A stretch of DNA of 64,000 nucleotides from Methylocystis rosea (GTDB lineage Bacteria; Pseudomonadota; Alphaproteobacteria; Rhizobiales; Beijerinckiaceae): contig NZ_CP034086.1 of the NCBI RefSeq assembly GCF_003855495.1, positions 1,835,501 through 1,899,500 on the forward strand, written 5' to 3'. The notes below the pieces were generated by a model that did no database searches, was not told the DNA's origin, and was given only the letters and a program-made list of their open reading frames with translations. The position numbers and the translations under genes are program-made. How positions within the stretch are numbered: the stretch's first letter is position 1; each line of letters opens with the position of its first letter. Shown piece after piece: positions 2,247 through 16,969 of this stretch.

Positions 2247-3871
2247 GGAACCTCCGCAAAGGCGTCCTTGTGCGGCAGCGCCGCGTCGGGCACGTCGAAA
2301 ATGCTGCGCGGCAGGCCGTAAAGCTCGTCGTAATAGGAATCGAGACGCTTCGTGATCTGCTGATCGTAACGCGGGCGAATATGCAACGTCTTGCCACGCG
2401 TGTAATGCGAGACTTGGCCGTCGCGCACGACGAGAGCGCCATCCTTGAAGACCAGCGCCGCGCGTCGGAACATGCCGGCGACGTCGCGTCCGGGCTTGTA
2501 AACGGCGATGTCGGCGATGGCGCCGGGACTGAGCCGGCCGCGATCGACAAAGCCAAAGAGCTTCGCGGCGCCGGAGCGGCTCATCTGCGCGATTTCGTAA
2601 AGCGTGTATTCGCGCGAAATCGACGGCAGCGTCGTGTGCTCCAGCACCTCGGCCGGAAGGCGCGCAAGATGCTGCGCGCGAAGATCGGCGCTCATCAGCA
2701 ACGCGAAGAGCTCCGGATAGGTCGTGAACGGACCGCCGTTCGGATGGTCGGTGGTGAAGAACACCTGCTCGGGATTTTCAATGAGCAGGAAGAGCTCCAG
2801 ACCCGCCGCCCATTGGATGGCGTTATAATAATTCGAGATCTTGTAGACGTAGGGAACGATGCCGCCGCCATTGGCGTCGCCGTCGAAGATCGCGCCCTTC
2901 TTCGGGATCGCGCCCGGCAGGCTGTTGAACTGTTTCAGAACGTCGGACGAAATCGTCACCGTGTCCGAGAACATCACCTGGCCGACGTCGACGCTGACAT
3001 TCGGATTCGCGTTGATCTTCTCGGCGAAGAGCGCGCCGGCTGACGAGAAGCCGTTCTTGCCCTCCTTGCCATAGGCGTAGAATTGCACATGCGCGAGATG
3101 AAGCGGCAATCCCTGCGCGGCGTCTATGGTCGCGAGCGCCGTGTCGATGTTGCCGGCAAGGCCGAGATTGTTCATGTGCAGATGCAGCGGATGGGCGATG
3201 CCCAGCGCCTGAGTCGACTTCTGCAGCGACTGGAAGATCTGGCGCGACGTCAGCCCGTAAAAGGGCACGACATCGTCGAGCCCGAAGGCGCGCATGTTCT
3301 CCTTGAAGGCTTCGACCCCGCCCGGATTGATGCACTTTAAGCCGAGCGAACGGGTGTTTTCGACGGTCTGCGCGACATAATCGTTGATCGCGCCGTCCTT
3401 CTCACCGTCGCGCAACATGCCGAGCAGAAAGTCGTCATTGCCGAGCACGGTGAGTGCGCCCTTGTCGATGATCGGCACGTCGTTGAATTCGAGATGGGTC
3501 TGCAGCGCGTGATGCGGCGCCATCGCCGGCTCGACGACAGTGGTGAAGCCCATCTGGGCGTAGAGACGGCCGGTCTCGTAGCTCGACCATTTGGCCGTCG
3601 ACAGCGGCGTGTCGGCGAGCCGCGCGCGAATCGCGCGATGCAGCTCCGGCAGCAGCAGTCGCGCCGTGTTCACATTGCCGCCGGCGATGTGCGAATGGAT
3701 GTCGATTGCGCCGGCCATGACGATATGGCCGGAGACGTCGATCTCCTTGTCGGCGCTGCGCCCGTCGGGCCGCTCGACGATGCGGCCGTCCTCGAACCAC
3801 ACGTCGCCGATCGCGTCCTGGCCGGTCGCCGGATCGACGATATGGCCGCCGCGCAAAACTGTCAGCGCCAT
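2234..3871 (-). CDS. fhcA: Formyltransferase/hydrolase complex subunit FhcA
   Basis: 545 residues, amidohydrolase superfamily. FhcA hydrolyses the formyl-carrier to formate in the Fhc complex. The metal-binding HxH is visible at about residues 59-61 (DIHSHIAGGN), further histidines occur in LHLHMNNLG and HLAHVQFYAYG, and the conserved aspartate lies in FFTTDHPNGGPF. The start overlaps fhcB by 10 bases. Length and motifs agree with the bacterial FhcA family, and nothing looks damaged. Confidence 0.96.
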   Translation of the reverse strand: MALTVLRGGHIVDPATGQDAIGDVWFEDGRIVERPDGRSADKEIDVSGHIVMAGAIDIHSHIAGGNVNTARLLLPELHRAIRARLADTPLSTAKWSSYETGRLYAQMGFTTVVEPAMAPHHALQTHLEFNDVPIIDKGALTVLGNDDFLLGMLRDGEKDGAINDYVAQTVENTRSLGLKCINPGGVEAFKENMRAFGLDDVVPFYGLTSRQIFQSLQKSTQALGIAHPLHLHMNNLGLAGNIDTALATIDAAQGLPLHLAHVQFYAYGKEGKNGFSSAGALFAEKINANPNVSVDVGQVMFSDTVTISSDVLKQFNSLPGAIPKKGAIFDGDANGGGIVPYVYKISNYYNAIQWAAGLELFLLIENPEQVFFTTDHPNGGPFTTYPELFALLMSADLRAQHLARLPAEVLEHTTLPSISREYTLYEIAQMSRSGAAKLFGFVDRGRLSPGAIADIAVYKPGRDVAGMFRRAALVFKDGALVVRDGQVSHYTRGKTLHIRPRYDQQITKRLDSYYDELYGLPRSIFDVPDAALPHKDAFAEVPCRI

Positions 3872-4962
3872 GCGCCCTCCGAAACTTCCGCCATAATGGC
3901 GCCGATCGCCTGCGCCACGCTCGGCGCGTCCGTCGGCGCGCTTGCCCTGCGCAGCGTCATGCCGCCGGTTTCCTGACCCATCAGCACCGCGTCATGCGTG
4001 ACGCCGGGCTGACCGACTTTAATGAACAGCCCGCGAGACGGCGCCGCCTGCGCCGGCGCGAGCGTGATGAGCGGGATGTCGGCGCGGGACCAAGCAGGCT
4101 TTTCGCCGTCGAAGGCGGAAATCCACAGCGCCGCATCCGCCTCGCCGCTGTCGACGAGCCGCGAGGACTCGAAACGCCACGGGTCGTGCTCCGGATAACC
4201 ACGGCCAAAACCCGTGCGCGGCGGAAAGCCCGTCATCCAGCCCGCCGTCTGGGTCACGCCCGAAGCGCCGCTGCGGCCGCCGATATGAACGCCCGTGAAT
4301 CGGGTCGTGGCGTTAAGCTCGATCACCAAAGCCTGCAGCATTTCGATCGCCAGCGGATCGAGCGTCGACGCCGACCAGACGAAGACGCCAAAGCGCGCGT
4401 TTCGCAGCGTCTCCACGAGAGCGTCAATAAGAGTGATTTTTTCGGCGTCCAGCGCCACCGGCCGTCCGCCGAAGCGGGCGCGCCACGCCGCCAGCACGCC
4501 GGAAAGTTCCTGCACAGAGGCCGGAATGACCTTTGCGCCTGGGACAGCCTTCGCTTCGTCGCCGTCCGGCCCGACCCAGATCACCTTGCGCGGCTGCTGC
4601 GCTTGCGCTCCGCGGCGTGGCGGCTCGGCAAGCGCAAGGCGCTCCAGCATGCCAGGCCAGGCTTGAGTCAGTCCCGGGCCGATCAGCACGACGCAGTCGC
4701 CGCGAAGGCGCGCCTCGTTCGCCGTCGTCGTGAACATGCCGAAGGAACGCTTGACGTCGATATCGGCAAGCGTTTCGCGCGACGCGAGATGGTCGAAGGC
4801 GCCCTTCAGCTGCTCGGCTAAGAGGATCGCGGCGCGCGCGCCGGCGACGTCGGCGCCAAGGCCGGCGATGAGCGGAAAGGCCGCTTCCTTGAGAATTTTG
4901 CCGGCATGTCGATAGGCGTCGCCAAGCGCAATCGCCTTGCCGTCGAGCGTTGCTGTCTCCAT
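3862..4962 (-). CDS. fhcB: Formyltransferase/hydrolase complex subunit FhcB
   Basis: 366 residues, the degenerate bacterial relative of the molybdopterin/tungstopterin subunit of formylmethanofuran dehydrogenase. I see no N-terminal iron-sulfur cysteine cluster. The only cysteine I can find is in ARLRGDCVVLIGPG, consistent with the known loss of redox activity in bacterial FhcB, where the complex works as a transferase/hydrolase. It is the first gene of fhcBADC. A tandem AAGCTT-GA-AAGCTT (4993-5006) lies about 30 bases upstream of its ATG and may be part of the operon's control region. Confidence 0.93.
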   Translation of the reverse strand: METATLDGKAIALGDAYRHAGKILKEAAFPLIAGLGADVAGARAAILLAEQLKGAFDHLASRETLADIDVKRSFGMFTTTANEARLRGDCVVLIGPGLTQAWPGMLERLALAEPPRRGAQAQQPRKVIWVGPDGDEAKAVPGAKVIPASVQELSGVLAAWRARFGGRPVALDAEKITLIDALVETLRNARFGVFVWSASTLDPLAIEMLQALVIELNATTRFTGVHIGGRSGASGVTQTAGWMTGFPPRTGFGRGYPEHDPWRFESSRLVDSGEADAALWISAFDGEKPAWSRADIPLITLAPAQAAPSRGLFIKVGQPGVTHDAVLMGQETGGMTLRRASAPTDAPSVAQAIGAIMAEVSEGAWR

Positions 4963-5310: not shown

Positions 5311-5388
5311 ATGGCCTGGACGACTCCCGTGATTGTCGAAGTCTGCGTCGGCATGGAAATCACCAGCTACGAGTCCGCCGAGATCTAA
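5311..5388 (+). CDS. pqqA: PQQ precursor peptide PqqA
   Basis: A 25-residue peptide starting MAWTTPVIVEVCVGMEI and ending TSYESAEI. It has the MxWxxP opening and the Glu-x3-Tyr pair (E16 and Y20) that PqqE cross-links to build pyrroloquinoline quinone, the cofactor of methanol dehydrogenases. A strong GGAGG lies six bases before the ATG. pqqB, C, D and E do not follow: the next gene is a di-heme peroxidase. It is therefore an orphan or extra pqqA copy; methylotrophs often carry several. Confidence 0.93.
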   Translation: MAWTTPVIVEVCVGMEITSYESAEI

Positions 5389-5394
5389 TTCGGC

Positions 5395-5419
5395 GCGGCT
5401 TTCGCTGTGCCGAAGCCGC
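5395..5419 (+). terminator. Hairpin after pqqA
   Basis: GCGGCTT (5395-5401) pairs with AAGCCGC (5413-5419) around an 11-base loop, starting six bases after the pqqA stop. There is no clear run of T afterwards, so it may serve as an mRNA-stabilising or attenuating hairpin rather than a full terminator. Confidence 0.4.
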
Positions 5420-5436
5420 CAACGAATTCCAAAAAT

Positions 5437-5493
5437 CGAGCCGGCAAGAAGAGCGCTGCGCAAAGCGGTAGCGCTTTTCGTTTCGCCGGCTCG
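5437..5493 (+). promoter_or_regulatory. Nested hairpin in the leader of the peroxidase gene
   Basis: CGAGCCGGC (5437-5445) pairs with GCCGGCTCG (5485-5493). Inside it AGCGCT (5452-5457) pairs with AGCGCT (5470-5475), giving a two-tier stem. The structure ends 29 bases before the ATG of the di-heme peroxidase. It may be a second termination point after pqqA or a leader that tunes expression of the next gene. Confidence 0.35.
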
Positions 5494-5522
5494 AATCATT
5501 TTGGCCAGAGTCGGCGAGGCTA

Positions 5523-6584
5523 ATGGCCACGAACAGGAGCGTCGACTTGCGCGCGCCTTCTTTCCTCATCGCTCTCGTTGCTCCCCTCTTCATCGCTGCG
5601 ATCGCCCAGGCGGAACCTCCGAACGCGAAGACGCTTCTCGAGGACGCGAAACAAAATTTCCAGCCGATCGTCGTTCCCTCCCCTGGCAATGATTCGGTGA
5701 CGGCGGCGCGAATCGAGCTTGGTCGCCGATTGTTTTTCGAAAGCCGCGTGTCGATGGACGGCAACGTCAGTTGCGCGCATTGCCATTTGCCGGAGAAGCA
5801 GGCGAGCGACGGGCTGCCGAAGGCGATCGGCGTGTTCGGCAAGGAAAATCCGCGCAACGCGCCGTCGATCTTCAACGCCGCGCTGAATTTCAAACAGCAT
5901 TGGCGCGGCGATCGCGAGTCGCTCGAAGACCAGGCGGAGAAATCGCTGCTCGGCCCTGCGAGCTTCGGCAATCCCGATCAAGCGACGGCGATGAGCAAGC
6001 TCAAGGCGATTCCCGCCTATGCCGGCGCCTTCGCCAAAGCGTTTCCCGGCGACAAGGACCCGATCAATTCGAAGAATTGGGGCGTCGCGGTCGGCGCCTT
6101 CGAGCGCACGCTGCTGACGCCCTCGAAGTTCGACGCCTTCCTCATGGGCGACGCTTCGGCGCTGACGAAGCAAGAGGCGGCGGGGCTGCGCAAATTCATC
6201 GATCTTGGCTGCGCCTCTTGCCACAATGGCGCGGGCGTCGGCGGCAACTCCTTCCAAAAATTTGGCGTTGTGAGCGACTACTGGAAAGAAACCGGAGTCA
6301 CGACGCCCGACAAGGGTCGCGCCGACGTCACCAAAAATGATGCGGACCTCTATGTCTTCAAGGTCGCGAGTCTGCGCAACGTCACGCAGACGGCGCCCTA
6401 TTTCCACGACGGGTCCGTCGCCGACCTGACCAAAGCCGTGAAAATCATGGGCAAGACGCAGCTCGGGCAGGATCTGTCGGAGAAGGATGCGGCCGACATT
6501 GTCGCCTTTCTCGGCGCGCTGACCGGACCGGTTCCGGCGAGTTATACTGCGCCGGAACTCTATCCGGACGCGCAAGGAAATTAG
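5523..6584 (+). CDS. Di-heme cytochrome c peroxidase / MauG-family protein
   Basis: 353 residues with a signal peptide (hydrophobic stretch about 14-30, ending AIAQA). Two c-type heme sites are visible: CAHCH at residues 84-88 and CASCH at 230-234, the arrangement of bacterial CcpA/MauG proteins. These periplasmic enzymes reduce peroxide or perform oxidative maturation of quinoprotein partners. Its place directly after pqqA and before the lanthanide-transport genes suggests a role tied to periplasmic PQQ enzymes, but that is inference. Peroxidase and MauG-like oxidase cannot be separated by reading alone. Confidence 0.88.
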   Translation: MATNRSVDLRAPSFLIALVAPLFIAAIAQAEPPNAKTLLEDAKQNFQPIVVPSPGNDSVTAARIELGRRLFFESRVSMDGNVSCAHCHLPEKQASDGLPKAIGVFGKENPRNAPSIFNAALNFKQHWRGDRESLEDQAEKSLLGPASFGNPDQATAMSKLKAIPAYAGAFAKAFPGDKDPINSKNWGVAVGAFERTLLTPSKFDAFLMGDASALTKQEAAGLRKFIDLGCASCHNGAGVGGNSFQKFGVVSDYWKETGVTTPDKGRADVTKNDADLYVFKVASLRNVTQTAPYFHDGSVADLTKAVKIMGKTQLGQDLSEKDAADIVAFLGALTGPVPASYTAPELYPDAQGN

Positions 6585-6593
6585 GCGTGGACG

Positions 6594-6646
6594 CACCCTC
6601 CCCTTGAGGGGGAGGGTCGCATTGCAAAGCAATGCGGGGTGGGGTG
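6594..6646. repeat. REP-like palindromic element, left copy
   Basis: Begins CACCCTCCCCTTGAGGGGGA and ends GCGGGGTGGGGTG. It is internally palindromic and matches, in inverted orientation, the element at 6721-6768. It lies just after the stop of the peroxidase gene. Such elements are common between genes in alphaproteobacteria. Confidence 0.75.
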
Positions 6647-6720
6647 ACGACGCAAAAACCATTTGAGAAAGAATGCGTCTCGCCTCCCGAACTCAACTGC
6701 GAGGACTTGCGGCCCTGCGC

Positions 6721-6768
6721 CACCCCACCCCGCGCTTCGCGCCGACCCTCCCCCTCAAGGGGAGGGTG
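6721..6768. repeat. REP-like palindromic element, right copy (inverted)
   Basis: Begins CACCCCACCCCGCGCTTCGC and ends CCTCAAGGGGAGGGTG, the reverse of the copy at 6594-6646, with about 75 bases between them. The pair could fold into one large stem between the convergent peroxidase and response-regulator genes and act as a bidirectional transcription end. Confidence 0.75.
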
Positions 6769-6778
6769 AATGCGCGTC

Positions 6779-7399
6779 TTACGTCAACTTGTGTTCGAGC
6801 GCGATGCGCATCAGCTCCATCGGCGTGCGGGCGCCAAGCTTTCGTTTCATGATCGAGCAGCTGTTGGCGATCGTCTTGTAGGAGACTTGAGTCGCATCGG
6901 CGATCTCGGCCATCCCGAGCCCGCGCCCGAGCATTCGCAAAATCTCCAATTCACGCGCGGTCAACGCGGAGAGCGGACTGGCCGCCGCGCCGCTCTTTTC
7001 GAAGGCGAGCTGATTGGCGATTTTAGGCATCAGAAAAACGCCGCCGGAAGCTACCTCGCGCACGGCTGTGAGCAAGAGATAGGGATCGTCGTTCTTCGTC
7101 ACATAGCCCTTTGCGCCCATCTGAATCGCGCGCGCGGCAAAAATCGGGTCGTCGTTCATGCTGAAGACGACGATGCGGGCATGTGGATCAGTCTCGAGAA
7201 TCCGCCGCGTCAACTCAAATCCCGAAACCCCCGGCAGGCCGATGTCGACGACTGTCACGTCGGGCTTTTGCGCCACGAAAACGCTAAGACCCGTCTCCGC
7301 GTCTCGCGCGTCGACGACGTCGATGTCGCCCTCACCGGCGAGCATCGCTGCGCAGCCGGAAACGATGATCGGATGGTCGTCGACGATAAGAACGCGCAT
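6779..7399 (-). CDS. LuxR/NarL-family response regulator
   Basis: 206 residues. The receiver domain spans about 1-120, with the acidic pocket VDDHP and the phospho-acceptor Asp52 in VVDIGLPGVSG. A LuxR-type helix-turn-helix lies at about 140-200 (LTARELEILRMLGRG, then IADATQVSYKTIANSCSIMK). The partner kinase is encoded divergently next door. Systems of this type (FlhSR-like) control formaldehyde and methanol oxidation genes in some methylotrophs. The position inside a PQQ/lanthanide cluster makes a similar role plausible but unproven. Confidence 0.9.
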   Translation of the reverse strand: MRVLIVDDHPIIVSGCAAMLAGEGDIDVVDARDAETGLSVFVAQKPDVTVVDIGLPGVSGFELTRRILETDPHARIVVFSMNDDPIFAARAIQMGAKGYVTKNDDPYLLLTAVREVASGGVFLMPKIANQLAFEKSGAAASPLSALTARELEILRMLGRGLGMAEIADATQVSYKTIANSCSIMKRKLGARTPMELMRIALEHKLT

Positions 7400-7506
7400 A
7401 ATCGGTCATGGCTCCAAGTATCCCGGGCCTGCCAACGGCAGGCGGCAAAACATTGCAGGCATTGGGGCCTATCGTAAAGTCGCACGCTTCTCTAGAGAAT
7501 TGGCCC

Positions 7507-8847
7507 ATGCTTCGAAGGCTCTCCCTGCGCCTTCGCCTGTCGCTGCTGCTCGGCGTCGTGCTCGCGCTGGGACTGGCGCTCGGCGTCGGCCTGCTCGTAT
7601 TGCATGCGGGCGCGCGCGTTCGCGCCGAAGCCGACGGCGCGACGCGCCTTGCGCGCGAACTCGTAGAAGCGACGCTAACGCGACTTGACGCGGCGCCAGA
7701 CCCGGAGGCGGAGATCGGGCGACTTCTCGCCGACGCGCGGCGGCTGCGCCATGTTCGCGTCACGCTCGCCGGAGAGGAGACGCACGCGCGGGAGGACGTC
7801 GACCGCGCGCCGCAGTGGTTCACCCGGCTCGTGCTGCCGAACGCCGCTGTGACCCGAATCGAAACCGGCCGGGGGGCCGCGATCATGATCGCTTCCAATC
7901 CCGCGGATGAGATCGCCGAAATTTGGCAGGAGATCGTTTGGCTCGCGATCGGCGGCGCGGGAATCGCCGTCGCCGCCTTCGCGCTCGTTTCACTCGCCGT
8001 GTCGCGAACGCTGCGTCCGGTCGCCACGCTCGCGGAGGGCCTGCAGCGTCTCGAGCGCGGCGAACATTCGATGCGCGTTCCCGCCGATGGTTCTCCGGAG
8101 TTCGTCATCATCGCCGAACGGATCAACGCGTTGGCGGCGACGCTGCAACGGCTCGACGACGAAAATCGCAGGCTCGTGCGGCGCATGATCCATGTGCAGG
8201 ACGAAGAGCGCAAAGACATCGCCCGCGACCTGCATGACGAGATCGGCCCTTTTCTTTTCACTGTGCGCGCCGGCGTTGGCGCATTGGCGCGCCGGGCGAC
8301 CGCGCCGGGCGCAGACCCGATCCGACTCGCAGAAGATTGCGCCCGCATCGACGCACAGATCGCCGCTCTGCAACAGGTCAACAGACGCATTCTGGGACGG
8401 CTGCGTCCCGCCGCCCTCGAGGAGATGGGACTTGCCGACGCGTTAGAGGCGCTGGCGCAAGGCTGGCGCGACGCCAATCCGAAGGTCGCCATCGCACTTT
8501 CGCTCGACGGCGCCTCCGGGGACATCGAAGAAGCGACCGCGCTCACCGCCTATCGCATCGTGCAGGAAGCGCTCGCCAATGCGTTAAAGCATTCGGGCGC
8601 CAATCGGGTCGAGGTTGCCGTCATGCGGTCGACGGGCGCATTGCATATTGTCGTGCGGGACAATGGGGCCGGCCTCCAAACGACGCGTTCCGCGTCCTCG
8701 AGCGGTCTCGGTTTGCGCGGCATGAGCGAACGAGTCGGCGCGCTCGGCGGCGCGCTCACGCTTGCGAACGACGCAATGGGCGGCGCGCGGCTGACCGCGT
8801 CGCTGCCGATGCGCGAGGGCGGAACGGCGCAGCACGACCCGCTATGA
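7507..8847 (+). CDS. NarX-type sensor histidine kinase (HisKA_3)
   Basis: 446 residues from the ATG at 7507. An in-frame ATG at 7408 would add 33 poorly conserved residues and nearly abut the divergent regulator start. Two membrane segments (about 10-33 and 142-165) flank a periplasmic sensor of about 110 residues. A HAMP linker (166-218) follows, then a HisKA_3 dimerisation domain with His243 in RKDIARDLHDEIGPF, then a HATPase domain with ANALKHSGAN, RDNGAGL and SGLGLRGMSER. It pairs with the LuxR-type regulator on the opposite strand. The sensed signal is unknown. Confidence 0.9.
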   Translation: MLRRLSLRLRLSLLLGVVLALGLALGVGLLVLHAGARVRAEADGATRLARELVEATLTRLDAAPDPEAEIGRLLADARRLRHVRVTLAGEETHAREDVDRAPQWFTRLVLPNAAVTRIETGRGAAIMIASNPADEIAEIWQEIVWLAIGGAGIAVAAFALVSLAVSRTLRPVATLAEGLQRLERGEHSMRVPADGSPEFVIIAERINALAATLQRLDDENRRLVRRMIHVQDEERKDIARDLHDEIGPFLFTVRAGVGALARRATAPGADPIRLAEDCARIDAQIAALQQVNRRILGRLRPAALEEMGLADALEALAQGWRDANPKVAIALSLDGASGDIEEATALTAYRIVQEALANALKHSGANRVEVAVMRSTGALHIVVRDNGAGLQTTRSASSSGLGLRGMSERVGALGGALTLANDAMGGARLTASLPMREGGTAQHDPL

Positions 8848-8967
8848 GGTCAAGCCAAGGGGCGCGCAACGTCTCGCTTGAGCTCGCCAATGTTCGCCTA
8901 TGTGCGCTCAACTCGACCAGCGTCGCGTCGCCCCTATATGCGCCTTGACGGTCAACGCACCGCATCC

Positions 8968-9708
8968 ATGGGGTCGCGCGTGTACTCACAACATGTTGAC
9001 TATCTCCCGCTGCCGCCCATCCTCTACGCGGTCTTCACGGGCGCGCTCATCGCGCTGTTCCTGCTGATCCAGTTTGGCGTGCTTCGCTATGCTTTCGGCC
9101 GCATCGGCCTGAGTTCGAAATATGCGACGCTCCTCTTGCTCGCGTCGCTTCTGGGAAGCTATGTGAACATTCCGGTTGCGCATTTCACCCAGGAACGCGT
9201 CGTTCCTCAAGAAATGGTCGACGATTTTGGCGGGCGCTATGTCGTCCCAGAGGTCGTCAACTGGCCGGGAATGATATTGGCCGTCAATGTCGGCGGCGCC
9301 GTTATTCCACTGTTGCTTTCGATCTATTTGCTCGCCCGTAATCGCATCTGGATCGTGGCGGCGCTTGCGACGGCGATCGTCGCTGTGGTCGTCCATTACT
9401 TTGCGCGGATTGTGCCCGGCGCCGGCATTAGCGTGCCGATCCTGGCGCCGCCGCTGGTGTCGGCGGCTCTCGCGATTTTGCTGTCGCGCGATTTCGCCGC
9501 GCCGGTCGCCTATGTCAGCGGCAGTCTCGGCACGCTCATCGGCGCCGACTTGCTCAATCTTGATAAGATAGAGGGCATCGGGACGCCGATCGTTTCGTTT
9601 GGCGGCGCCGGAACATTCGACGGCATTTTCGTCACGGGAATTCTTGCCGTTCTGATCGCGAGCCTGCCCTTGCGGCGGAAAGCCACTGGCGTTTCGGCGA
9701 CGACATAA
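8968..9708 (+). CDS. DUF1614 multi-pass membrane protein
   Basis: 246 residues from the ATG at 8968. The reading frame is open back to 8878, so the start is uncertain and no strong ribosome-binding site is visible. It shows six or seven hydrophobic segments and the family's conserved DYLPLPPILYAVFTGAL and LLGSYVNIPVA blocks. DUF1614 proteins are membrane proteins of unknown function found in methylotrophs and archaea. It sits between the two-component system and the TonB receptor, on the same strand as the latter. Confidence 0.8.
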   Translation: MGSRVYSQHVDYLPLPPILYAVFTGALIALFLLIQFGVLRYAFGRIGLSSKYATLLLLASLLGSYVNIPVAHFTQERVVPQEMVDDFGGRYVVPEVVNWPGMILAVNVGGAVIPLLLSIYLLARNRIWIVAALATAIVAVVVHYFARIVPGAGISVPILAPPLVSAALAILLSRDFAAPVAYVSGSLGTLIGADLLNLDKIEGIGTPIVSFGGAGTFDGIFVTGILAVLIASLPLRRKATGVSATT

Positions 9709-10028
9709 TCTGATCTGCGCGAGCCGATGCCAGCCTGCGAGCCAGCGTGTTCGACGCGCTCGACGGCGATTTTGCGCCGGACAAACACATTATCCCACCG
9801 GTATTCGGCTGTTGACGCTGGCGCGCGCGGCCATTCGCGCTCGTCGCGCGGTCGGGATATCTTCCCGAAACATACGGGAATGTATCCGCAGATTTCCGTT
9901 ATTTTTCAGAAGTGTAGCCGTCGCGCAACAGACGGGAAATATTGCCGGTTTGTCGCCTTGCGCCACTACCGGCCGCGAGCCTCATAGCTATAAGTCGTTC
10001 AACAGGATTGAATGTTCCAGGGCTCTCA
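9709..10028 (+). promoter_or_regulatory. Upstream region of the TonB receptor gene
   Basis: 320 bases with no supported gene. It contains an imperfect 33-base palindrome (9855-9887, listed separately), a further CGGGAA half-site at 9933-9938 and a moderately AT-rich stretch around 9890-9945. This is the likely promoter and operator region for the lanthanide-uptake genes that follow. Confidence 0.45.
9855..9887. promoter_or_regulatory. Imperfect 33-bp palindrome, candidate operator
   Basis: The left arm GGATATCTTCCCG (9855-9867) and right arm CGGGAATGTATCC (9875-9887) are complementary except for two positions, around a 7-base spacer. It is centred about 158 bases before the TonB receptor ATG. 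Size and symmetry suit a dimeric DNA-binding protein; a hairpin in RNA is the alternative. No regulator can be named from sequence. Confidence 0.45.
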
Positions 10029-12428
10029 ATGCGCTACGTCAAGCAGGTCTCGCTCATCGCTCTTTGCGCTTCTCTCGCCACAACAGCCCGCGCGCAGCAG
10101 GCATTGCCGACGATCGAGGTAGGAGGCGCGCCTCTGCGTTCGACCGCGCGGCCGCCTGTGCAGACGACGCCCTCGACCCAGCGCGCGCCGGCAGGTCGTG
10201 CGTCGGTGACGTCAGCGCCTGCGACGCCTGCTCTGCCGGCGTCTCCCATCGTGCGTTACGCTGTTCCAGCGGCGACCTATACGATCACCGGCAATGAGCT
10301 GCAGAACACGCGCGCGTTCAATCTCCCGGAGAACCTTGTTCGTCAGGCGCCCGGAGTCACCGTCAATGACGTGGCAGGCGGACCGTTCCTGCCGGAAATC
10401 GATTTCCGCGGCTTCGTCGCCTCGCCCATCGCCGGAACGCCACAAGGCCTCGCCGTTTATCAGAACGGCATTCGCATCAACGAAGCCTGGGGCGACAACG
10501 TCTATTGGGACATGATCCCGAGCGTGGCGATTGATCGCTTCACGCTCGTGACCGGCAACCCGCTGTTCGGCCTCAACGCCATCGGCGGCGCCGTTACGCT
10601 CGACATGAAAAACGGCTTCACGTGGCAGGGGTTCGAGCTCGACGGGCGCTTCGGCAGCCGCGGCCGCCGCCAAGCATCGATGCAGCACGGCCTCATCTCT
10701 GGGCCGTTCGCCACCTACATGGCGATGGAGGCGCTTGGCGACGACGGCTACCGCCAGTTTTCCGGCGCGCACATCAAGCGCTTCTATGGCGATGTCGGCT
10801 ACCGCGGCGAGAGCGGCGAGATCCACGCCAATGTGACGCTCGCCAATAATAAGTTCGGCGTTTCAGGTCCGGCGCCGGTCGATCTCACCAATCTCGACGA
10901 AAGCGCGGTCTTCACAACGCCGCAGACGATCAAGAACACGCTCTCGATGTTCGACATCAATGGCGTGTTTCAGGCGACGCCGACCTGGAAGCTCTTCGGC
11001 GACATGCATTACCGCGCCTTCGATCAAGCGAGGGTCGACGGCAATACGACGGAATTCGAATGCGAAGTCGACGAGTCGCTGTGCGAGAGCGACGCCGGCG
11101 ACACAAACATCCCCAATTTCTTCAACGGGCAGGTCGCTCTGGGGGCGATCGATAGAACCTGGACGCGGTCGCGCACCGTCGGCGGCACGGTGCAGGTCAC
11201 GAACGAGGATCTCTATTTCGGCTTCCACAACAAGATCACCTTTGGCGTCAGCTACGATCATGGCTGGACCGCCTTCTCCGCCAATGAGGAACTGGGCATC
11301 ATTCAGCCCAATCTCGTCGTCGGGGGTTTCGGCTACATTGTCGAAGAGCAGGCGACCGGCATCTCCAGCGTCTCTGTGCGTGCGGCGAACGATTATCTCG
11401 GCGTCTATGCGCTCGATTCGCTGGATTTGACCGACGATCTAAAGGTCACAGCGGGCGCCCGTTTCAACCGCGCCAACATCGCGCTCTACGACATGAGAGG
11501 AACGACGCTGAACGGCAATGGCGTCTTCACCCGCATCAATCCAGTCGCGGGCCTGACCTACAAAATACTGCCGAACGTCTCCGCCTACGCCAGCTACTCC
11601 GAGGCGAACCGCGCGCCAACGCCGCTCGAACTCGGCTGCGCCGATCCCAACCGGCCCTGTCTTATCGACAACTTCCTCGTCGCCGATCCGCCGCTGAAGC
11701 AGGTGGAGGCGCAAACGATCGAAGCCGGATTTCGGGGGGATATTGCCGTTCCGACGATCCTGCCCGCCTATGCCGATGCGCTGCCCGGCAATCTCAACTG
11801 GAGCCTTGGCGTCTTCCGCACCTATAGTTTCAATGACATTCTGAGCGTGCCGAGCGCGATCAACGGCCGCGGCTATTTCACCAACGCTGGCACGACTCTA
11901 CGCCAGGGGATCGAATCGTCCTTCCGCTACACGACCGAACGGGTGAACGCCTTTTTGAACTACACGCACACGGACGCGACATTCCGCTCGACGATCGTGC
12001 TCGGCGCGCCCGATAATCCGCTGACCGGGACTTTTGGGACCGGCGGCTCCATCCTGGTGACGCCTGGCGCAAATCTGACCTCAGTGCCGCGTCACCGCTT
12101 CAAGGCCGGGATTGATTTCGCCGTGACCCCGCTGTGGAAAGTCGGCGCCGACTTCCAATATTCGTCCGGTCCGTATATTCGCGGCGACGAAATCAACCTC
12201 GCCGGAAGGTTGCCGTCGTACGGCATTCTCAATTTTCGCACGTCGTATCAGCTTGGCCCGAACATCCAGGTCTACGGCCTGCTCGAAAATGTCACCAACA
12301 CCCGAGCGCGCAGCTTCGGCACGTTTTTCGACACGAATGACATCTCCTTTCTCGCCTTCAACAATCCGCGCATGGTCTCGATCGGCCCGCCGCTGGGCGT
12401 CTATGGGGGCGTGAAGATCACCTACTGA
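10029..12428 (+). CDS. lutH: TonB-dependent outer-membrane receptor, probable lanthanide (lanthanophore) receptor
   Basis: 799 residues. The ATG at 10029 is chosen because a signal peptide follows at once (SLIALCASLATTARAQQ). A low-complexity Pro/Thr linker precedes a plug domain (about 80-220, with FNLPENLVRQAPGVTVNDV and GNPLFGLNAIGGAVTL) and a 22-strand-type barrel ending in an aromatic-containing C-terminus (GVYGGVKITY). In Methylobacterium, LutH brings chelated lanthanides across the outer membrane and lies beside lanM, exactly as here. The substrate is inferred from this gene neighbourhood; an iron or copper chelator receptor cannot be excluded from the protein alone. Confidence 0.85.
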   Translation: MRYVKQVSLIALCASLATTARAQQALPTIEVGGAPLRSTARPPVQTTPSTQRAPAGRASVTSAPATPALPASPIVRYAVPAATYTITGNELQNTRAFNLPENLVRQAPGVTVNDVAGGPFLPEIDFRGFVASPIAGTPQGLAVYQNGIRINEAWGDNVYWDMIPSVAIDRFTLVTGNPLFGLNAIGGAVTLDMKNGFTWQGFELDGRFGSRGRRQASMQHGLISGPFATYMAMEALGDDGYRQFSGAHIKRFYGDVGYRGESGEIHANVTLANNKFGVSGPAPVDLTNLDESAVFTTPQTIKNTLSMFDINGVFQATPTWKLFGDMHYRAFDQARVDGNTTEFECEVDESLCESDAGDTNIPNFFNGQVALGAIDRTWTRSRTVGGTVQVTNEDLYFGFHNKITFGVSYDHGWTAFSANEELGIIQPNLVVGGFGYIVEEQATGISSVSVRAANDYLGVYALDSLDLTDDLKVTAGARFNRANIALYDMRGTTLNGNGVFTRINPVAGLTYKILPNVSAYASYSEANRAPTPLELGCADPNRPCLIDNFLVADPPLKQVEAQTIEAGFRGDIAVPTILPAYADALPGNLNWSLGVFRTYSFNDILSVPSAINGRGYFTNAGTTLRQGIESSFRYTTERVNAFLNYTHTDATFRSTIVLGAPDNPLTGTFGTGGSILVTPGANLTSVPRHRFKAGIDFAVTPLWKVGADFQYSSGPYIRGDEINLAGRLPSYGILNFRTSYQLGPNIQVYGLLENVTNTRARSFGTFFDTNDISFLAFNNPRMVSIGPPLGVYGGVKITY

Positions 12429-12447
12429 CGCCAGAGCGCAGGAATGT

Positions 12448-12480
12448 CGCGGGCCGCTAGCCGGCTCGGCGGCGCCCGCG
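12448..12480. terminator. GC-rich hairpin between lutH and lanM
   Basis: CGCGGGC (12448-12454) pairs with GCCCGCG (12474-12480), with further pairing inside. There is no T run, so at most partial termination or mRNA stabilisation that would let lanM be expressed at a different level from lutH. Confidence 0.3.
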
Positions 12481-12519
12481 CTATATTGGGTGCGATGGCC
12501 TTACTCAAAGGAGTCGCAC

Positions 12520-12921
12520 ATGAAGAAAGCATTGCTATTCGGCGCGCTCGCGCTTGCTGGCGTCACGGCGTTGCCGGCGACGTCCGCGCTCGCCAAGGCG
12601 GCCGGCCCCGTCGCCGCGCTCGACACCGACGATGATGGAACTGTCGATCTCAAGGAAATCAACAAGTCTGCGACTGATCTCTTTGCGAGTCTCGAGAAGG
12701 ACGCTGACGGAACGGTCGACCTCAAAGAGATGAAAGGCCGCGTCTCGAAGAAGGACTTTAAAACAGCCGATCCGGACAATGACGGCACGCTTTCAAAGGA
12801 CGAATTTCTGACGATGGTCTCCGTCATGTTCAAGGATGCGGATCCCGACAATGACGGCACGCTCGACGCCAAGGAGCTCGCATCCAAGAAGGGTAAGGCG
12901 CTGCTGCGCGTGACACGGTGA
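12520..12921 (+). CDS. lanM: Lanmodulin: periplasmic lanthanide-binding EF-hand protein
   Basis: 133 residues, starting at the ATG behind an AAGGAG site. A signal peptide (about 1-25) is followed by four EF-hand loops at 35-46, 59-70, 84-95 and 108-119. These are the same positions as in the Methylobacterium extorquens lanmodulin precursor, including the short 12-13 residue spacing between loops that sets lanmodulin apart from calmodulin. The segments MKGRVSKKDF and KELASKKGKALL also match. Loops 3 and 4 have the diagnostic second-position proline (DPDNDGTL). Loop 1 has Thr36 there, and loop 2 starts with Glu59-Lys60. It should bind lanthanides in the periplasm with high affinity; the variant loops may change selectivity. 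It lies directly downstream of the TonB receptor. Confidence 0.9.
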   Translation: MKKALLFGALALAGVTALPATSALAKAAGPVAALDTDDDGTVDLKEINKSATDLFASLEKDADGTVDLKEMKGRVSKKDFKTADPDNDGTLSKDEFLTMVSVMFKDADPDNDGTLDAKELASKKGKALLRVTR

Positions 12922-12986
12922 ATCCAGGAAGGCGCGCGGGCTCTGAAGAACTTGATCCTGCGCGCCAAAGCGGCCATCTAGGCAAT

Positions 12987-14165
12987 ATGAAAAGCTTGGT
13001 CGTCGCCGTCTGTTTCGTGCTTTTCGCCGCGCCGGTCGCGGCTGAAACGGTCAACGTCAAAGTCGGCGTCCTACGCGAAACGCACGCCCGAGAAACCCTC
13101 TCTATTCTCGATATTCCGGCCGCCGACGATACGCTCGCCGGGGCGCTGATGGGCGCAGCCGACAACAACACCACAGGCAAATTCACCAACCAGACGTTCG
13201 AGGCGATCGACGCCAGGCTCGAGGACGGCGAGGACGTCATGGCGGCCCTCGACGCGCTTCTGGACAAGGGCGCCCTGTTCATCATCGCCGATCTTTCGCC
13301 CGATCGTCTGCTTGCCGCTTCCGAGCGCGCGAAGCCGAAAGGCGCCCTGCTTTTTAATGTCTCCGCGACGGATGACAGGCTTCGCGAAAATGACTGCCGC
13401 GCCAATGTCATCCATGTCGCGCCGACGCGTTCGATGCTCGCTGATGGCCTCGCGCAATATCTCATCTGGAAGCAATGGCGCCGCTGGCTCCTCATCAAGG
13501 GCTCGCATCCCGAAGACGAACTTTTGGCGCAAGCCTTCCGCAACAGCGCCAAGAAATTCGGCGCAAAGATCGTCGAGGAACGCGTCTATGAAGACACCGG
13601 CGGCGGACGCCGCAGCGACTCCGGTTCGGTGCAGACCCAGCGGCAAATTCCTGTCCTGACGCAGAACGCGCCAGCCTATGACGTGCTGGTCGCCGCGGAC
13701 GAGACCGAGGTCTTCGGGGGCTATCTTCCCTACCGCACCTGGGACCCGCGTCCTGTGGCAGGGTCAGGCGGACTTATGCCAACAAGCTGGAACGCCTCCC
13801 ATGAGCAATGGGGCGCGCTTCAGCTGCAGAACCGTTTCACCCAGACGTTCAGGCGCCTGATGAATGTGCGAGACAATGCGGCGTGGCTCGCCATGCGGAT
13901 GATTGGCGAAGCCGCAACGCGCACCGGGTCGAACGACCCCGAGAAGCTCCGCCTCTACCTGCTCGGCAACGACTTCTCCATCGCCGCATTCAAAGGCGTG
14001 CGGCTTACGTTGCGGCCCTGGAACCAGCAATTGCGCCAGCCGATACTGCTTTCCGACGGACGGATGATCGTCTCGGTTTCGCCGCAGGAAGGCTTTCTCC
14101 ATCAAACGAGCGAACTCGACACGCTTGGAGCCGATCAGCCGGAGTCGAAATGCAAATTGCAGTGA
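12987..14165 (+). CDS. lutA: Periplasmic ABC binding protein of the PQQ-dehydrogenase/lanthanide system
   Basis: 392 residues from the ATG at 12987, which opens straight into a signal peptide (SLVVAVCFVLFAAPVAAETV). The open frame reaches back to 12918, overlapping lanM. The body is a type-1 periplasmic binding fold of the kind annotated as substrate-binding protein of the PQQ-dependent alcohol dehydrogenase system. LutA of Methylobacterium belongs to the same gene set and is needed to carry lanthanides to the cytoplasm. It is followed by the propeller protein and the ABC ATPase and permease on the same strand. Substrate assignment is by synteny. Confidence 0.82.
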   Translation: MKSLVVAVCFVLFAAPVAAETVNVKVGVLRETHARETLSILDIPAADDTLAGALMGAADNNTTGKFTNQTFEAIDARLEDGEDVMAALDALLDKGALFIIADLSPDRLLAASERAKPKGALLFNVSATDDRLRENDCRANVIHVAPTRSMLADGLAQYLIWKQWRRWLLIKGSHPEDELLAQAFRNSAKKFGAKIVEERVYEDTGGGRRSDSGSVQTQRQIPVLTQNAPAYDVLVAADETEVFGGYLPYRTWDPRPVAGSGGLMPTSWNASHEQWGALQLQNRFTQTFRRLMNVRDNAAWLAMRMIGEAATRTGSNDPEKLRLYLLGNDFSIAAFKGVRLTLRPWNQQLRQPILLSDGRMIVSVSPQEGFLHQTSELDTLGADQPESKCKLQ

Positions 14166-14171
14166 AGAACG

Positions 14172-14296
14172 CCCCCTCCCCACCCCTCCCCCGCTGCCGC
14201 GGGAGAGGGAGCAGATTCGGCCTCTCGCTCCTTTTCGCGAAACGCCGATCGTTAGCGTCCCCTCTCCCGCGAAGCGGGGGAGGGACAGGGAGGGGG
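14172..14296. repeat. REP-like palindrome at the start of the beta-propeller gene
   Basis: The left arm (14172-14212, CCCCTCCC...GGGAGAGGGAGC) and right arm (14255-14296, CCCCTCTCCCGCG...GGGAGGGGG) are close inverted repeats. The element begins seven bases after the lutA stop and ends exactly at the TTG start proposed for the next gene, so its last bases (GGGAGGGGG) may supply that gene's ribosome-binding site. Confidence 0.75.
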
Positions 14297-15250
14297 TTGT
14301 GGGTCGCGGCGCTGCTCGCAACTTTGATCGCGCCCGCCCACGCCTATAAGGCGTACGTCAGCAACGAGAAGGGCAATTCCATCACCGTCCTCGATACGGA
14401 GAAGCTGGAAGCGACAGCGACCGTGAAGGTCGGCCGACGCCCGCGCGGCATTGCGCTCAACAAGGACGGCTCCGAACTCTATATCTGCGCCGGCGACGAC
14501 GACGCCATTCAAGTGCTCGACACGAAGACGCTCAAGGTCACCGGAAAGCTGCCCTCGGGCCCGGATCCCGAGCTCCTGGCGCTCAGTCCTGATGGCGACG
14601 TGATTTATGTCTCGAATGAAAACGACAATCTCGTCACGCTGATCGACGTGAAGAAGAAAGAGATGATCGGCGACATTCCCGTGGGCGTCGAACCCGAGGG
14701 CATGGCGATCAGTCCCGACGGCAAGCTGCTCGTCAACACATCGGAAACGACCAATATGGCGCATCTGATCGACACGCAGTCGAAGCAGATCGTCGCGAAT
14801 ATTCTGGTCGATGCGCGGCCGAGATTTGCGGAGTTCAAGAAGGACGGGTCGGAGCTTTGGGTATCCTCGGAAGTCGGCGGGACGGTCGCGATCATCGACC
14901 CCGCGAAACGCGAGTTGAAGCAGAAGATAAGCTTCGACATTCCGGCGATGTCGAAAGAAGCGATACAGCCGATCGGCATTTCGTTCACGCGCGACGGAAA
15001 ACGCGCCTTCGTCGCGCTGGGGCCGGCCAATCGCATTGCGGTGATCGACGCCGAGACAAAAAAAGTCGAAAAATATCTGCTCGTCGGTCAGCGCGTCTGG
15101 CACCTCGCTTTCACGCCGGACGAAAAATATCTGCTCACCGCCAATGGCGTCTCAAACGACGTCTCGGTGATCGACGTCGCATCGCTCAAAGTGGTGAAAT
15201 CGATCCCGGTCGGCGCTTTCCCTTGGGGCGTCGTCGTGGCGCCGCAATGA
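14297..15250 (+). CDS. YVTN beta-propeller protein of the PQQ-dependent catabolism cluster
   Basis: 317 residues if translation begins at TTG 14297, which gives a clean signal peptide (WVAALLATLIAPAHA before YKAYVSN). An in-frame ATG at 14150 overlaps lutA but would put 49 repeat-encoded, Pro/Arg-rich residues before the signal sequence. The mature part is a periplasmic propeller with repeated motifs such as ITVLDTEKLEATATVKVG, VTLIDVKKKEMIGDIPVG and VSVIDVASLKVVKSIPVG. The family is regularly found beside PQQ alcohol dehydrogenases and this ABC transporter. The function is unknown; a scaffold or binding role in the periplasm is likely. Confidence 0.85.
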   Translation: MWVAALLATLIAPAHAYKAYVSNEKGNSITVLDTEKLEATATVKVGRRPRGIALNKDGSELYICAGDDDAIQVLDTKTLKVTGKLPSGPDPELLALSPDGDVIYVSNENDNLVTLIDVKKKEMIGDIPVGVEPEGMAISPDGKLLVNTSETTNMAHLIDTQSKQIVANILVDARPRFAEFKKDGSELWVSSEVGGTVAIIDPAKRELKQKISFDIPAMSKEAIQPIGISFTRDGKRAFVALGPANRIAVIDAETKKVEKYLLVGQRVWHLAFTPDEKYLLTANGVSNDVSVIDVASLKVVKSIPVGAFPWGVVVAPQ

Positions 15251-15268
15251 GTGTAAACCTTCGCGCCT

Positions 15269-15376
15269 GTCATTCCCGACGCGCGGAGCGCGATCGGGAA
15301 TCCAGAGCCGCGATCGGCGCTGTTGGCCGCGGCTCTGGATTCCCGGTCATTCGCTTCGCGAATGCCGGGAATGACA
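15269..15376. repeat. 108-bp imperfect palindrome between propeller and ATPase genes
   Basis: Starts TGTCATTCCCGACGCGCGGA and ends in the reverse complement GCCGGGAATGACA. Inner arms GGAATCCAGAGCCGCG and CGCGGCTCTGGATTCC also pair. It could form a long RNA stem inside the lut transcript and lower expression of the downstream ATPase and permease, or protect the upstream mRNA. Confidence 0.8.
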
Positions 15377-15395
15377 ATCCTGTCGGAGCGCCGCA

Positions 15396-16142
15396 ATGAC
15401 CCCCGCGCTCGCAATCAGAAACGTCAGCCACGCCTATGGGGCGCGCAAGGCGCTCGACGACGTCAGCTTTTCCGTGCCGGCCGGCAGCTTCACGGTGCTG
15501 CTTGGATTGAACGGCGCGGGCAAGAGCACGCTGTTCTCGCTGATCACGCGGCTCTATGCCGCGCGCCACGGCGAGATCGAGATATTTGGCCACAATGTCA
15601 TGCGCGAGCCCGGCGCAGCGCTGCGCCAGCTTGGCGTCGTCTTTCAGGCGCGCACGCTCGATCTCGAACTCAGCGTGATGCAAAATCTCCTCTATCACGC
15701 AGCCCTGCACGGCATCGGCCCGATCGACGCGCGCCGCCTTGGACAGGCGGCGCTATCGCGCGCGGGCCTTGCGGACCGCGCCAAGGACAAGGCCCGCTCC
15801 CTGTCTGGGGGACAGATGCGCCGCGTCGAAATTGCGCGCGCGCTGCTGCATGATCCGCGGCTGCTGCTTCTCGATGAGCCGACAGTCGGGCTCGACATCA
15901 AAGCCCGCGCCGATCTCCTCGCGCTTGTCCGCGGTCTGGTGCGCGATCAACATCTCGGCGTTTTGTGGACCACGCATCTCGTCGACGAGATCGCCGACGA
16001 TGATCAGGTGATCATTCTGCATCATGGTAAGGTTCTGGCGACGGGACGCGCCGCCGAGATCGTCGCGGCGCAAGGCGCGGCAAATATCGGCGACGCTTTC
16101 GCGCGCATCGCCGGGATCGGCCAGGAGAAGCTTTCGGCATGA
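15396..16142 (+). CDS. lutE: ABC transporter ATPase of the PQQ-dehydrogenase/lanthanide system
   Basis: 248 residues with Walker A (GLNGAGKST, residues 37-45), signature LSGGQMRRVEIARALL, Walker B (LLLLDEP) and the H-loop (TTHLVDE). It energises the inner-membrane transporter formed with the permease next door, whose start overlaps this stop by four bases. In Methylobacterium, LutE and LutF with LutA move lanthanides into the cytoplasm, and mutants are impaired in lanthanide-dependent growth. The match to that role is by family and synteny. The domain type is otherwise that of ABC-2 drug/polysaccharide ATPases. Confidence 0.88.
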   Translation: MTPALAIRNVSHAYGARKALDDVSFSVPAGSFTVLLGLNGAGKSTLFSLITRLYAARHGEIEIFGHNVMREPGAALRQLGVVFQARTLDLELSVMQNLLYHAALHGIGPIDARRLGQAALSRAGLADRAKDKARSLSGGQMRRVEIARALLHDPRLLLLDEPTVGLDIKARADLLALVRGLVRDQHLGVLWTTHLVDEIADDDQVIILHHGKVLATGRAAEIVAAQGAANIGDAFARIAGIGQEKLSA

Positions 16143-16969
16143 GCGAAATTGCTACGCCAAGAGGCTTCACCCTTCGCCAATATCTCATCTGTCTCTCGGG
16201 AGTCGTCTGGCGCGAGGGCCTGCGCTTTCTGCATCAGCGCGAACGCTTCGTCTCGGCGCTGGTGCGCCCGCTCGTCTGGCTCTTTATTTTCGCGGCGGGC
16301 TTCCGGCAGGTGCTCGGCGTTTCGATCATCCCGCCTTACGAAACTTACGTTCTCTACGAGGTCTATATCGCGCCCGGCCTGATGGCGATGATCCAGCTCT
16401 TCAACGGCATGCAGTCTTCGCTCTCGATGGTCTACGACCGCGAAATGGGCAGCATGCGCACGCTGCTCGTCTCACCCTTTCCGCGCTGGTTTCTGCTCGG
16501 CTCCAAACTTCTGGCCGGCGTCGCCGTCTCGATACTGCAGGTCTACGCTTTCCTGGTGATCGCCTATTTCTGGGAAATCGAGCCGCCGACGAAATGGGGC
16601 TATCTCACCCTGCTGCCGGCGCTCGCGCTCAGCGGCCTGATGCTCGGCGCGCTCGGCATGCTGCTGTCATCGCTGATCAAACAGCTCGAAAACTTCGCCG
16701 GCGTGATGAATTTCGTGATCTTTCCGATGTTCTTCGCGTCCTCCGCGCTCTACCCGCTGTGGCGCGTGAAGGAGTCGAGCCCCTGGCTCTATTACGTGTG
16801 CGAGGTTAATCCGTTCACGCATGCGGTCGAACTGATCCGCTTCGCCTTTTATGAGAAAGTCGAGTGGACGTCGCTCGCGATTGTCTTCGCCTACACGAGC
16901 GCGTTCCTGGTGGCGGCCATACTCGCTTATGATCCAGGACGCGGCATGTTGATGCGCAGGGGCGGTTGA
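16139..16969 (+). CDS. lutF: ABC-2 type permease of the PQQ-dehydrogenase/lanthanide system
   Basis: 276 residues, six predicted membrane segments (for example LVWLFIFAAGFRQVLG, VSILQVYAFLVIAYFW and FVIFPMFFASSALYPLW), typical of ABC-2 permeases. ATG overlaps the ATPase stop (ATGA), so the two are translated together. ABC-2 permeases are usually exporters, yet this subgroup accompanies a periplasmic binding protein and is reported to be needed for lanthanide uptake. It ends the plus-strand cluster; the next gene converges on it. Confidence 0.86.
   Translation: MSEIATPRGFTLRQYLICLSGVVWREGLRFLHQRERFVSALVRPLVWLFIFAAGFRQVLGVSIIPPYETYVLYEVYIAPGLMAMIQLFNGMQSSLSMVYDREMGSMRTLLVSPFPRWFLLGSKLLAGVAVSILQVYAFLVIAYFWEIEPPTKWGYLTLLPALALSGLMLGALGMLLSSLIKQLENFAGVMNFVIFPMFFASSALYPLWRVKESSPWLYYVCEVNPFTHAVELIRFAFYEKVEWTSLAIVFAYTSAFLVAAILAYDPGRGMLMRRGG

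Follow-up and report, generated by a model that had tools for sequence, protein, structure and literature searches.

A MxaYB-type two-component system within the lut/lanM locus of Methylocystis rosea and a candidate operator palindrome upstream of lutH

We analyzed a stretch of 64,000 nucleotides from Methylocystis rosea (the window), which occupies positions 1,835,501 to 1,899,500 of contig 1 in the 4.2-Mb genome G000. Between positions 5311 and 16969, the window carries pqqA, a di-heme peroxidase gene, a two-component system, a DUF1614 gene, and lut/lanM genes for lanthanide uptake (Table 1). Every gene that the original prediction, made from the sequence alone, had named in this region was found in the given order (profile scores in Table 1), and its assignment of the second half to a lut cluster was borne out, the LutA, LutB, LutE, and LutF families all scoring above cutoff in a single run of genes together with a TonB receptor. 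The EF-hand loops of the lanmodulin are at residues 35, 59, 84, and 108; only loops 3 and 4 have proline at position 2, a feature of M. extorquens LanM. The nearest named lanM loci, in a Methylocystaceae metagenome-assembled genome (99% identical) and in Methylocystis sp. H62 (95%), have the same gene order. We focus here on the two-component system, which probably serves as a dedicated regulator of the lut/lanM genes through a palindrome located upstream of lutH.

The system consists of a LuxR/NarL-type response regulator and a HisKA_3 sensor kinase, encoded by adjacent, divergent genes. At the end of the mxa cluster of M. rosea, there are genes for a regulator and a kinase that are 55% and 41% identical, respectively, to those of the window, an arrangement known in Methylocystis as MxaYB (PMC9291206). 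This mxa-linked copy is another gene pair, falling in a separate clade, and the window pair is not located at the mxa cluster. MxaY/MxaB of Methylotuvimicrobium buryatense and Methylocella silvestris are the same kind of kinase and LuxR-type regulator as the window pair, and the MxaY/MxaB copy of M. rosea shares with it the divergent gene organization and an acidic periplasmic motif; the window pair differs in being a separate paralogue, lying in a lut/lanM locus with a palindrome before lutH. From these comparisons, we infer that the window pair is of the MxaYB type and would work like MxaYB, yet that it is not MxaYB proper, its function in control being predicted by analogy.

The original prediction had proposed that gene order be compared in related genomes and had named missing linkage as grounds for refutation; this comparison revealed that the regulator pair recurs within lut loci across genera. 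Ten Methylocystis-group genomes have a lut-type regulator, at least 64% identical to that of the window, and 9 of them have it within 7 kb of lutA; genome G040 contains a 75% identical regulator at most 3.1 kb from lutA. Among the Bradyrhizobium-type genomes (f33), regulators with 55.2 to 59.1% identity had lutA, lutB, and lutF within less than 8 kb and an adjacent kinase in all 14 fetched loci, 13 of which also included lutH inside the fetched stretch; the other regulator copy of f33 (52.2 to 54.7% identity) was near lut in none of 12 fetched loci. Regulators were also found by lutH or lanM in G031 and G019, in Bradyrhizobium (L066 and L075), in Hyphomicrobium (L082), and on a Methylocystaceae contig (L019), and most of the 65 lanM loci of non-Methylocystis type (L018 to L082) have no such regulator near lanM. 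When 103 regulators were placed in a maximum-likelihood tree, the lut-type proteins of Methylocystis and its near relatives formed one clade (21 rows; support, 100/99), which includes an unlinked copy from G054, and Methylocystis MxaB formed a separate one (9 rows; 92/91). A 57-row group uniting the lut-type regulators of Methylocystis with those of the Bradyrhizobium type had only moderate support (87/82) and an unsettled bootstrap. The 20 lower-scoring regulators taken as controls were often located at mxa, xox, or lut loci too and are not neutral, so position and box statistics were used.

Exceptions to the linkage were G083 and G185, which have MxaB plus distant regulators only, and G145, where no regulator reached the threshold. 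Both G185 (L172) and G083 (L173), which lack the lut-type regulator, have lanM and lutH at the opposite end of the mxa cluster. In G054 (L094, 9004 to 15443), pqqA, the peroxidase gene, the kinase gene, and lutABEF stand in a row with no regulator between them, and the regulator (64% identity) is on another contig without lut (L165). G040 (L163, 8050 to 12412) has an MxaYB-like and a lut-type kinase/regulator pair side by side, adjoining lanM-lutABEF, which is possibly the ancestral arrangement of two paralogous switches.

Aligning lutH promoters brought to light the palindrome TCGGGA-N5-TCCCGA (17 bp), which is perfect in the window (Table 1) and is the new element described here. Pattern TCGGGAWNTNTTCCCGA has one perfect match in the M. 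rosea genome, at lutH, and three matches with one mismatch (L242 to L244), which fall inside or next to unrelated genes, including one in the beginning of another TonB receptor-like gene; the reversed control has none. We found 31 perfect sites in 183 fetched loci (3.27 Mb), which had been chosen for lanM, pqqA, or a regulator and some of which represent one strain fetched twice. Thirty of these sites are at most 420 bp before a lutH, lanM, or pyrroloquinoline quinone (PQQ)-dehydrogenase match, with one of them also preceding a regulator, and the 31st lies in a kinase gene. In the same loci, spacings of 0 to 12 other than 5 gave 1 match in total, and the next best of 120 half-site permutations gave 6 sites (median, 0).

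Across 347 genomes of the order, pattern TCGGGAWNWNWTCCCGA occurred at 23 sites in 22 genomes, and the reversed control was found in 5 genomes. Fourteen of the sites precede a LutH-like receptor (in G000, G015, G278, G483, G494, and nine f33 genomes), and two precede other TonB receptors (G472 and G494) that are not LutH-like by tblastn. The box was present in 12 of 20 genomes with a regulator above 200 bits (about 49% identity or more) versus 10 of 327 without, and, within the 56 genomes that have lutH, in 12 of 18 versus 4 of 38. We examined 30 lutH promoters from these 56 genomes, one per genome, and a box with at most two mismatches was found in 15 of 16 with a close regulator versus 0 of 14 without (Fisher test, 2e-7, kinship ignored). 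The best sites of shuffled promoters had 3.3 to 3.8 mismatches on average, two being reached and one rarely. Regulator scores came from up to 9 first-look candidates per genome and lutH scores from up to 2, such that second copies may be missed; in G483, the lutH copy counted among the 14 has no box, and a second lutH copy has one.

Perfect boxes also stand before siderophore-type TonB receptors in G472 (L303, 7783 onward) and G494 (L302, 7369 and 10448). Near the G472 site, there are a second receptor gene and a divergent ABC ATPase gene with a Peripla_BP_2 gene. These boxed receptors are candidate lanthanophore uptake genes.

We then analyzed the sensor region of the kinase. Both paralogues, the lut-linked kinase and MxaY, carry the motif DE-x-x-E-x-W before the second membrane helix, and D134, E135, and E138 are invariant across 46 homologues selected for alignment. 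Among 240 listed homologues, hits of at least 400 amino acids had the motif in 118 of 119 cases with MxaY as the query and in 114 of 117 with the lut-linked kinase. Sorted by linkage, it was found in 35/35 lut-linked, 17/18 mxa-linked, 2/5 xox-linked, and 2/27 unlinked kinases and in 1/2 kinases of mixed linkage classes, which include one further row without a kinase; rows lacking a detected kinase had been set aside (2 lut, 0 mxa, 4 lut-plus-xox, 3 xox, and 3 unlinked). The kinase scores 19.5 bits against the periplasmic LapD/MoxY domain (PF16448; cutoff, 25), and this domain is precomputed for many of the listed MxaY homologues and for few lut-kinase homologues. In M. buryatense, an E147G exchange makes MxaY constitutively active and unresponsive to lanthanum, and a part in the lanthanide response was proposed for E147 (PMC5018670). 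The motif of Methylocystis MxaY begins at residue 151, so that E147 of M. buryatense may fall in the DExxExW motif.

Gene content, conserved linkage, paralogy, the positions of the palindrome, and its association with one regulator lineage underlie our preferred reading, which we regard as fairly probable: a dedicated MxaYB-type pair, part of the lut/lanM locus at 6779 to 16969 of the window, would control lanthanide uptake via the lutH palindrome. We propose that the kinase senses the lanthanide state of the periplasm, with the carboxylates of the DExxExW motif, next to the second membrane helix, as a candidate site. When lanthanide is scarce, the kinase would phosphorylate the regulator, as inferred from MxaY and PedS2, and the phosphorylated regulator would bind the 17-bp palindrome before lutH and switch on uptake; when lanthanide is plentiful, this activation would stop. 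pqqA and the neighboring peroxidase constitute a separate module, able to stand without lut. The expected sign, with kinase and lutH on under lanthanide scarcity, follows from MxaY and PedS2 being active without lanthanide (PMC5018670; PMC6115532) and from lutH falling with lanthanide: the M. extorquens lutH promoter is repressed by lanthanum (PMC7391723), and lutH-type genes or proteins drop upon lanthanide addition in RH AL1 (PMC8316094) and Methylosinus OB3b (PMC12482762). A wider version of this model, which we hold to be tentative and rather doubtful, is a dedicated uptake regulon in the Hyphomicrobiales where the kinase would bind lanthanide directly through DExxExW and the regulator would act only through TCGGGAAWTWTTCCCGA at promoters of lutH, lanM, PQQ-dehydrogenase, and perhaps lanthanophore TonB-receptor genes; uptake and the dehydrogenase switch would then be two sister systems, each with an orphan pqqA nearby in Methylocystis.

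The lut genes, lanM, MxaYB, and a PedS2/PedR2 system beside a lanthanide transporter are already known. The window contains counterparts of lutA, lutB, lutE, lutF, lutH, and lanM of Methylorubrum extorquens AM1/PA1 and differs from that cluster by the two-component system inside the locus and by its gene order; lutC, lutD, lutG, and lutI were not searched by sequence, and there is no long gene space between lutH and lutF. PedS2/PedR2 of Pseudomonas putida is a rare-earth-responsive LuxR-type system which, like the window pair, is located beside a lanthanide transporter, PedA1A2BC, an ABC transporter with a binding protein and a PQQ-associated beta-propeller protein as in the window (PMC12997753; PMC6115532). 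Unlike the window, P. putida KT2440 has no LutH homologue (PMC12997753); the periplasmic region of PedS2 is said to be unlike the LapD/MoxY domain of MxaY (PMC6115532), and the studied targets of PedS2/PedR2 are pedE/pedH. We met no lut-dedicated MxaYB paralogue with a palindrome shared by the promoters of lutH, lanM, and PQQ-dehydrogenase genes in the literature searched, which misses most subscription papers. The gene pair, the 17-bp candidate operator, and the three carboxylates are named targets for mutation in methanotrophs and Bradyrhizobium, such that control of rare-earth uptake is now testable, with the same set recurring in distant relatives. Rare-earth biosensors and recovery strains would also benefit from a promoter that responds to lanthanides through a compact operator.

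Several observations weigh against a dedicated lut regulator acting through this box. The regulators within lut loci could be mere neighbors that control mxa or xox, and DExxExW was found in just 6 of 10 kinases of lut-plus-xox loci. Seven of the 23 order-wide sites precede no TonB receptor, and in M. rosea the box is not at lanM, lutA, pqqA, xoxF, or mxaF. G502 has the regulator with merely a 3-mismatch box, and, of the loci without lutH, L011, L013, L014, and L015 keep a box with one or two mismatches before DUF1614 and L006 and L016 have none. The genomes are related, so that the counts overstate independence; some three or four lineages are represented. Genomes whose regulators stay below 200 bits also have the box, at a LutH-like receptor in G483 and G494 and at another TonB receptor in G494 and G472. 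Lastly, MxaB is the best regulator of G185 and G083, and yet both keep boxes at lutH, a perfect one in G185 and two with 2 mismatches in G083. These last two genomes favor an explanation that we consider rather unlikely, namely, that MxaB, or each of the two paralogues, has the palindrome as its operator; the lut-linked pair would then mainly modulate the methanol dehydrogenase switch, and lut would be one more target within a shared regulon of the MxaB type. Both Methylocystis paralogues have the same helix letters, SYKT(I/V)AN, in agreement with this explanation, as are three mxaF promoters with a conserved half-site TTTCCCG(A/G) and TCGGGAAATTTTGGAA in the mxa-side pqqA promoter. However, the full palindrome with at most two mismatches was not found in the mxaF, xoxF, and pqqA promoters of M. 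rosea itself, and lutH promoters sort by the close regulator, although 13 of the 14 genomes with a box-less lutH promoter own some more distant MxaB-like regulator. It is quite improbable, in our view, that some unrelated regulator of TonB receptors, such as a metal repressor, uses the box and that the linkage of the regulator pair with lut is historical. The tie between box and regulator is indirect, and the boxes before siderophore-type receptors in G472 and G494 would suit such an unrelated regulator, but the box sorts with the regulator within lutH genomes, and G014, one of the 14 and with a lutH 59% identical to that of the window, has neither a regulator at threshold nor a box.

The original prediction had united the whole locus into one lanthanide module, to which pqqA, the di-heme enzyme, and DUF1614 would add cofactor supply and quinoprotein maturation. 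The regulator pair retains its place by virtue of conserved linkage across genera, whereas the three other genes are separable from lut, and we consider the single module very improbable. In its favor, the genes are contiguous in many Methylocystis, in the order fhc-pqqA-cytochrome c peroxidase (CCP)-regulator-kinase-(DUF1614)-(lutH)-lanM-lutABEF (L003, L004, L006 to L011, L013 to L016, L093, L098, L100, L102, L104, L106, and L110; some are clipped by contig or fetch ends, and DUF1614 and/or lutH is missing in some), and, among 65 loci examined, 14 Bradyrhizobium loci and 4 of Methylobacterium type have an orphan pqqA at a distance of 0.3 to 0.9 kb from lanM. Against it, the 20 pqqA neighborhoods fetched (19 from 11 genomes of the genus, some copies being omitted, and one from G040) include pqqA without lut as fhc-pqqA in G083 (L095, partly N beyond), fhc-pqqA-CCP in G106 (L097), fhc-pqqA with CCP 2 kb on in G040 (L112), and pqqA-CCP with one fhcA-like gene 6 kb off in G185 (L108). 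G106 (L164) and G040 (L163) have an intact lut-plus-regulator block at a place separate from pqqA. DUF1614 is at lut in G000, G122, G166, G176, and G193 and away from lut in G083, G106, G134, G156, and G185, i.e., in 5 of the 10 Methylocystis-group genomes having it, and none was seen in G015, G054, and G145. Thus, lut does not constantly include pqqA, the peroxidase, or DUF1614, conserved linkage does not support them as lanthanide genes, and the locus is made of two docked modules, pqqA plus CCP on the one hand and the two-component system, (lutH), lanM, and lutABEF on the other.

DUF1614 was consequently rejected as a lut component, since half of the genomes of the genus that carry it have it outside lut; no mention of this family was met in the literature searched, most subscription papers being outside that search. 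The case for pqqA as a lut component is weakened, yet its neighborhood with lanM recurs elsewhere. A MauG/MbnH-type maturase was ruled out for the di-heme protein, which scores 147.3 against the MauG profile TIGR03791 (cutoff, 443.85) and 173 against the MbnH profile TIGR04039 (cutoff, 362.85) and whose residues 38 to 346 match solved CcpR-type peroxidases with 267 bits versus only 63 for MauG. With two CxxCH motifs, an IMG-QLG stretch, and long similarity to CcpR/CCP, it is predicted to be a peroxidase, and the suggested role in quinoprotein maturation is therefore unsupported. The Met of the IMGK-QLG stretch is a heme ligand; the window protein is like the CcpR di-heme peroxidases in this stretch and in the 267-bit match and differs from them by its fhc and pqqA neighborhood.

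The original prediction that the locus, having no xoxF or mxaF in the window, acts in trans agrees with the genome, where TIGR03075 has two matches above cutoff, both on contig 1 outside the window: a PQQ dehydrogenase with the motif DYD at 2.70 Mb, which we take to be the single xoxF, and one with the motif DYA at 3.38 Mb, presumably the single mxaF. The name orphan pqqA is also justified, since neither of the two genome copies (E value up to 1), in the window and beside mxaY in the mxa region, adjoins pqqB, pqqC, or pqqE; these genes are ∼33 kb upstream of the window pqqA, without a pqqA there (L088). The PqqA precursor is above the cutoff of both profiles and has the E-x3-Y pair. A survey covered 199 genomes of the family, and, of the 13 listed genomes of the genus, 11 had two pqqA copies, G054 had one, and G145 had none. 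The pqqA promoter core, ATTGC...CATGnTA...GCCGAGCTnnAACCTGC, is for the most part conserved both with and without adjacent lut, including in G083, G106, G185, and G040, and a leader block, GCCGAGCT-N2-AACCTGC, is exact only upstream of pqqA among the own-genome stretches scanned. The mxa-side pqqA promoter (L090, 16640 to 16675) has two direct repeats of GAAATTTTG, 23 bp apart, and this repeat occurs otherwise once, inside the peroxidase gene, in four own-genome stretches. Three mxaF promoters share the block TTTCCCG(A/G)...CC(G/A)ATAAATC; this block and the GAAATTTTG repeats are candidate MxaB sites.

In the 14 Bradyrhizobium loci (L023, L026, L028, L031, L033, L034, L036, L040, L046, L056, L063, L071, L073, and L080), the orphan pqqA is 0.3 to 0.4 kb after lanM, with a PQQ dehydrogenase on the other side. 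Methylobacterium/Methylorubrum loci L052, L064, L078, and L079 have two or three tandem pqqA copies on the opposite strand, 0.5 to 0.9 kb from lanM. No pqqB, pqqC, or pqqE was found in the stretches of these 18 loci.

Table 1. Features of the lut/lanM region and its flank in the window
Feature	Position	Strand	Remarks
fhcCDAB (formylmethanofuran dehydrogenase/formyltransferase complex)	532..4962	-	TIGR03122, TIGR03119, and TIGR03121 above cutoff; TIGR03129 below cutoff; flanks the pqqA-CCP module
pqqA, orphan	5311..5388	+	25 aa (amino acids); PF08042, 36.3 bits (cutoff, 21.1); TIGR02107, 37.0 (cutoff, 20)
Di-heme bacterial cytochrome c peroxidase	5523..6584	+	CCP_MauG match; not MauG/MbnH
LuxR/NarL-type response regulator, MxaB paralogue	6779..7399	-	Response_reg and GerE; 55% identity to MxaB
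Sensor histidine kinase, MxaY paralogue	7507..8847	+	HAMP/HisKA_3; 41% identity to MxaY
Kinase periplasmic motif D134-E135-x-x-E138-x-W140	codons 7906..7926	+	Beside second membrane helix; candidate metal-sensing carboxylates
DUF1614 membrane protein	8968..9708	+	187.8 bits (cutoff, 23.9); start uncertain, frame open from 8878
Candidate lut box, perfect palindrome TCGGGATATCTTCCCGA	9852..9868	+	160 bp upstream of lutH start
lutH-type TonB-dependent receptor	10029..12428	+	PF00593/PF07715
lanM, lanmodulin	12520..12921	+	Four EF-hand loops; NF053806, 153.5 (cutoff, 135)
lutA, periplasmic binding protein	12987..14165	+	TIGR03863, 472.9 (cutoff, 413.6)
lutB, YVTN beta-propeller protein	14303..15250	+	TIGR03866, 513.6 (cutoff, 287.3); start codon uncertain
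lutE, ABC ATPase	15396..16142	+	TIGR03864, 334.2 (cutoff, 302.25)
lutF, ABC permease	16139..16969	+	TIGR03861, 398.9 (cutoff, 241.35)

Scans of the window with Rfam (gathering scores) and for tRNAs gave no matches, and a plasmid search returned 11 records with short partial matches, each covering at most 6% of the query. Elsewhere in the window, a 1984-aa open frame (36142 to 42096) matches apolipoprotein-type repeats (PF01442), and a KaiC-like ATPase gene adjoins a gene for a hybrid histidine kinase with a receiver domain (28097 to 31158, minus strand). Between the convergent peroxidase and regulator genes (6590 to 6770), inverted CCCTCCCC-rich repeat arms were noticed by eye.

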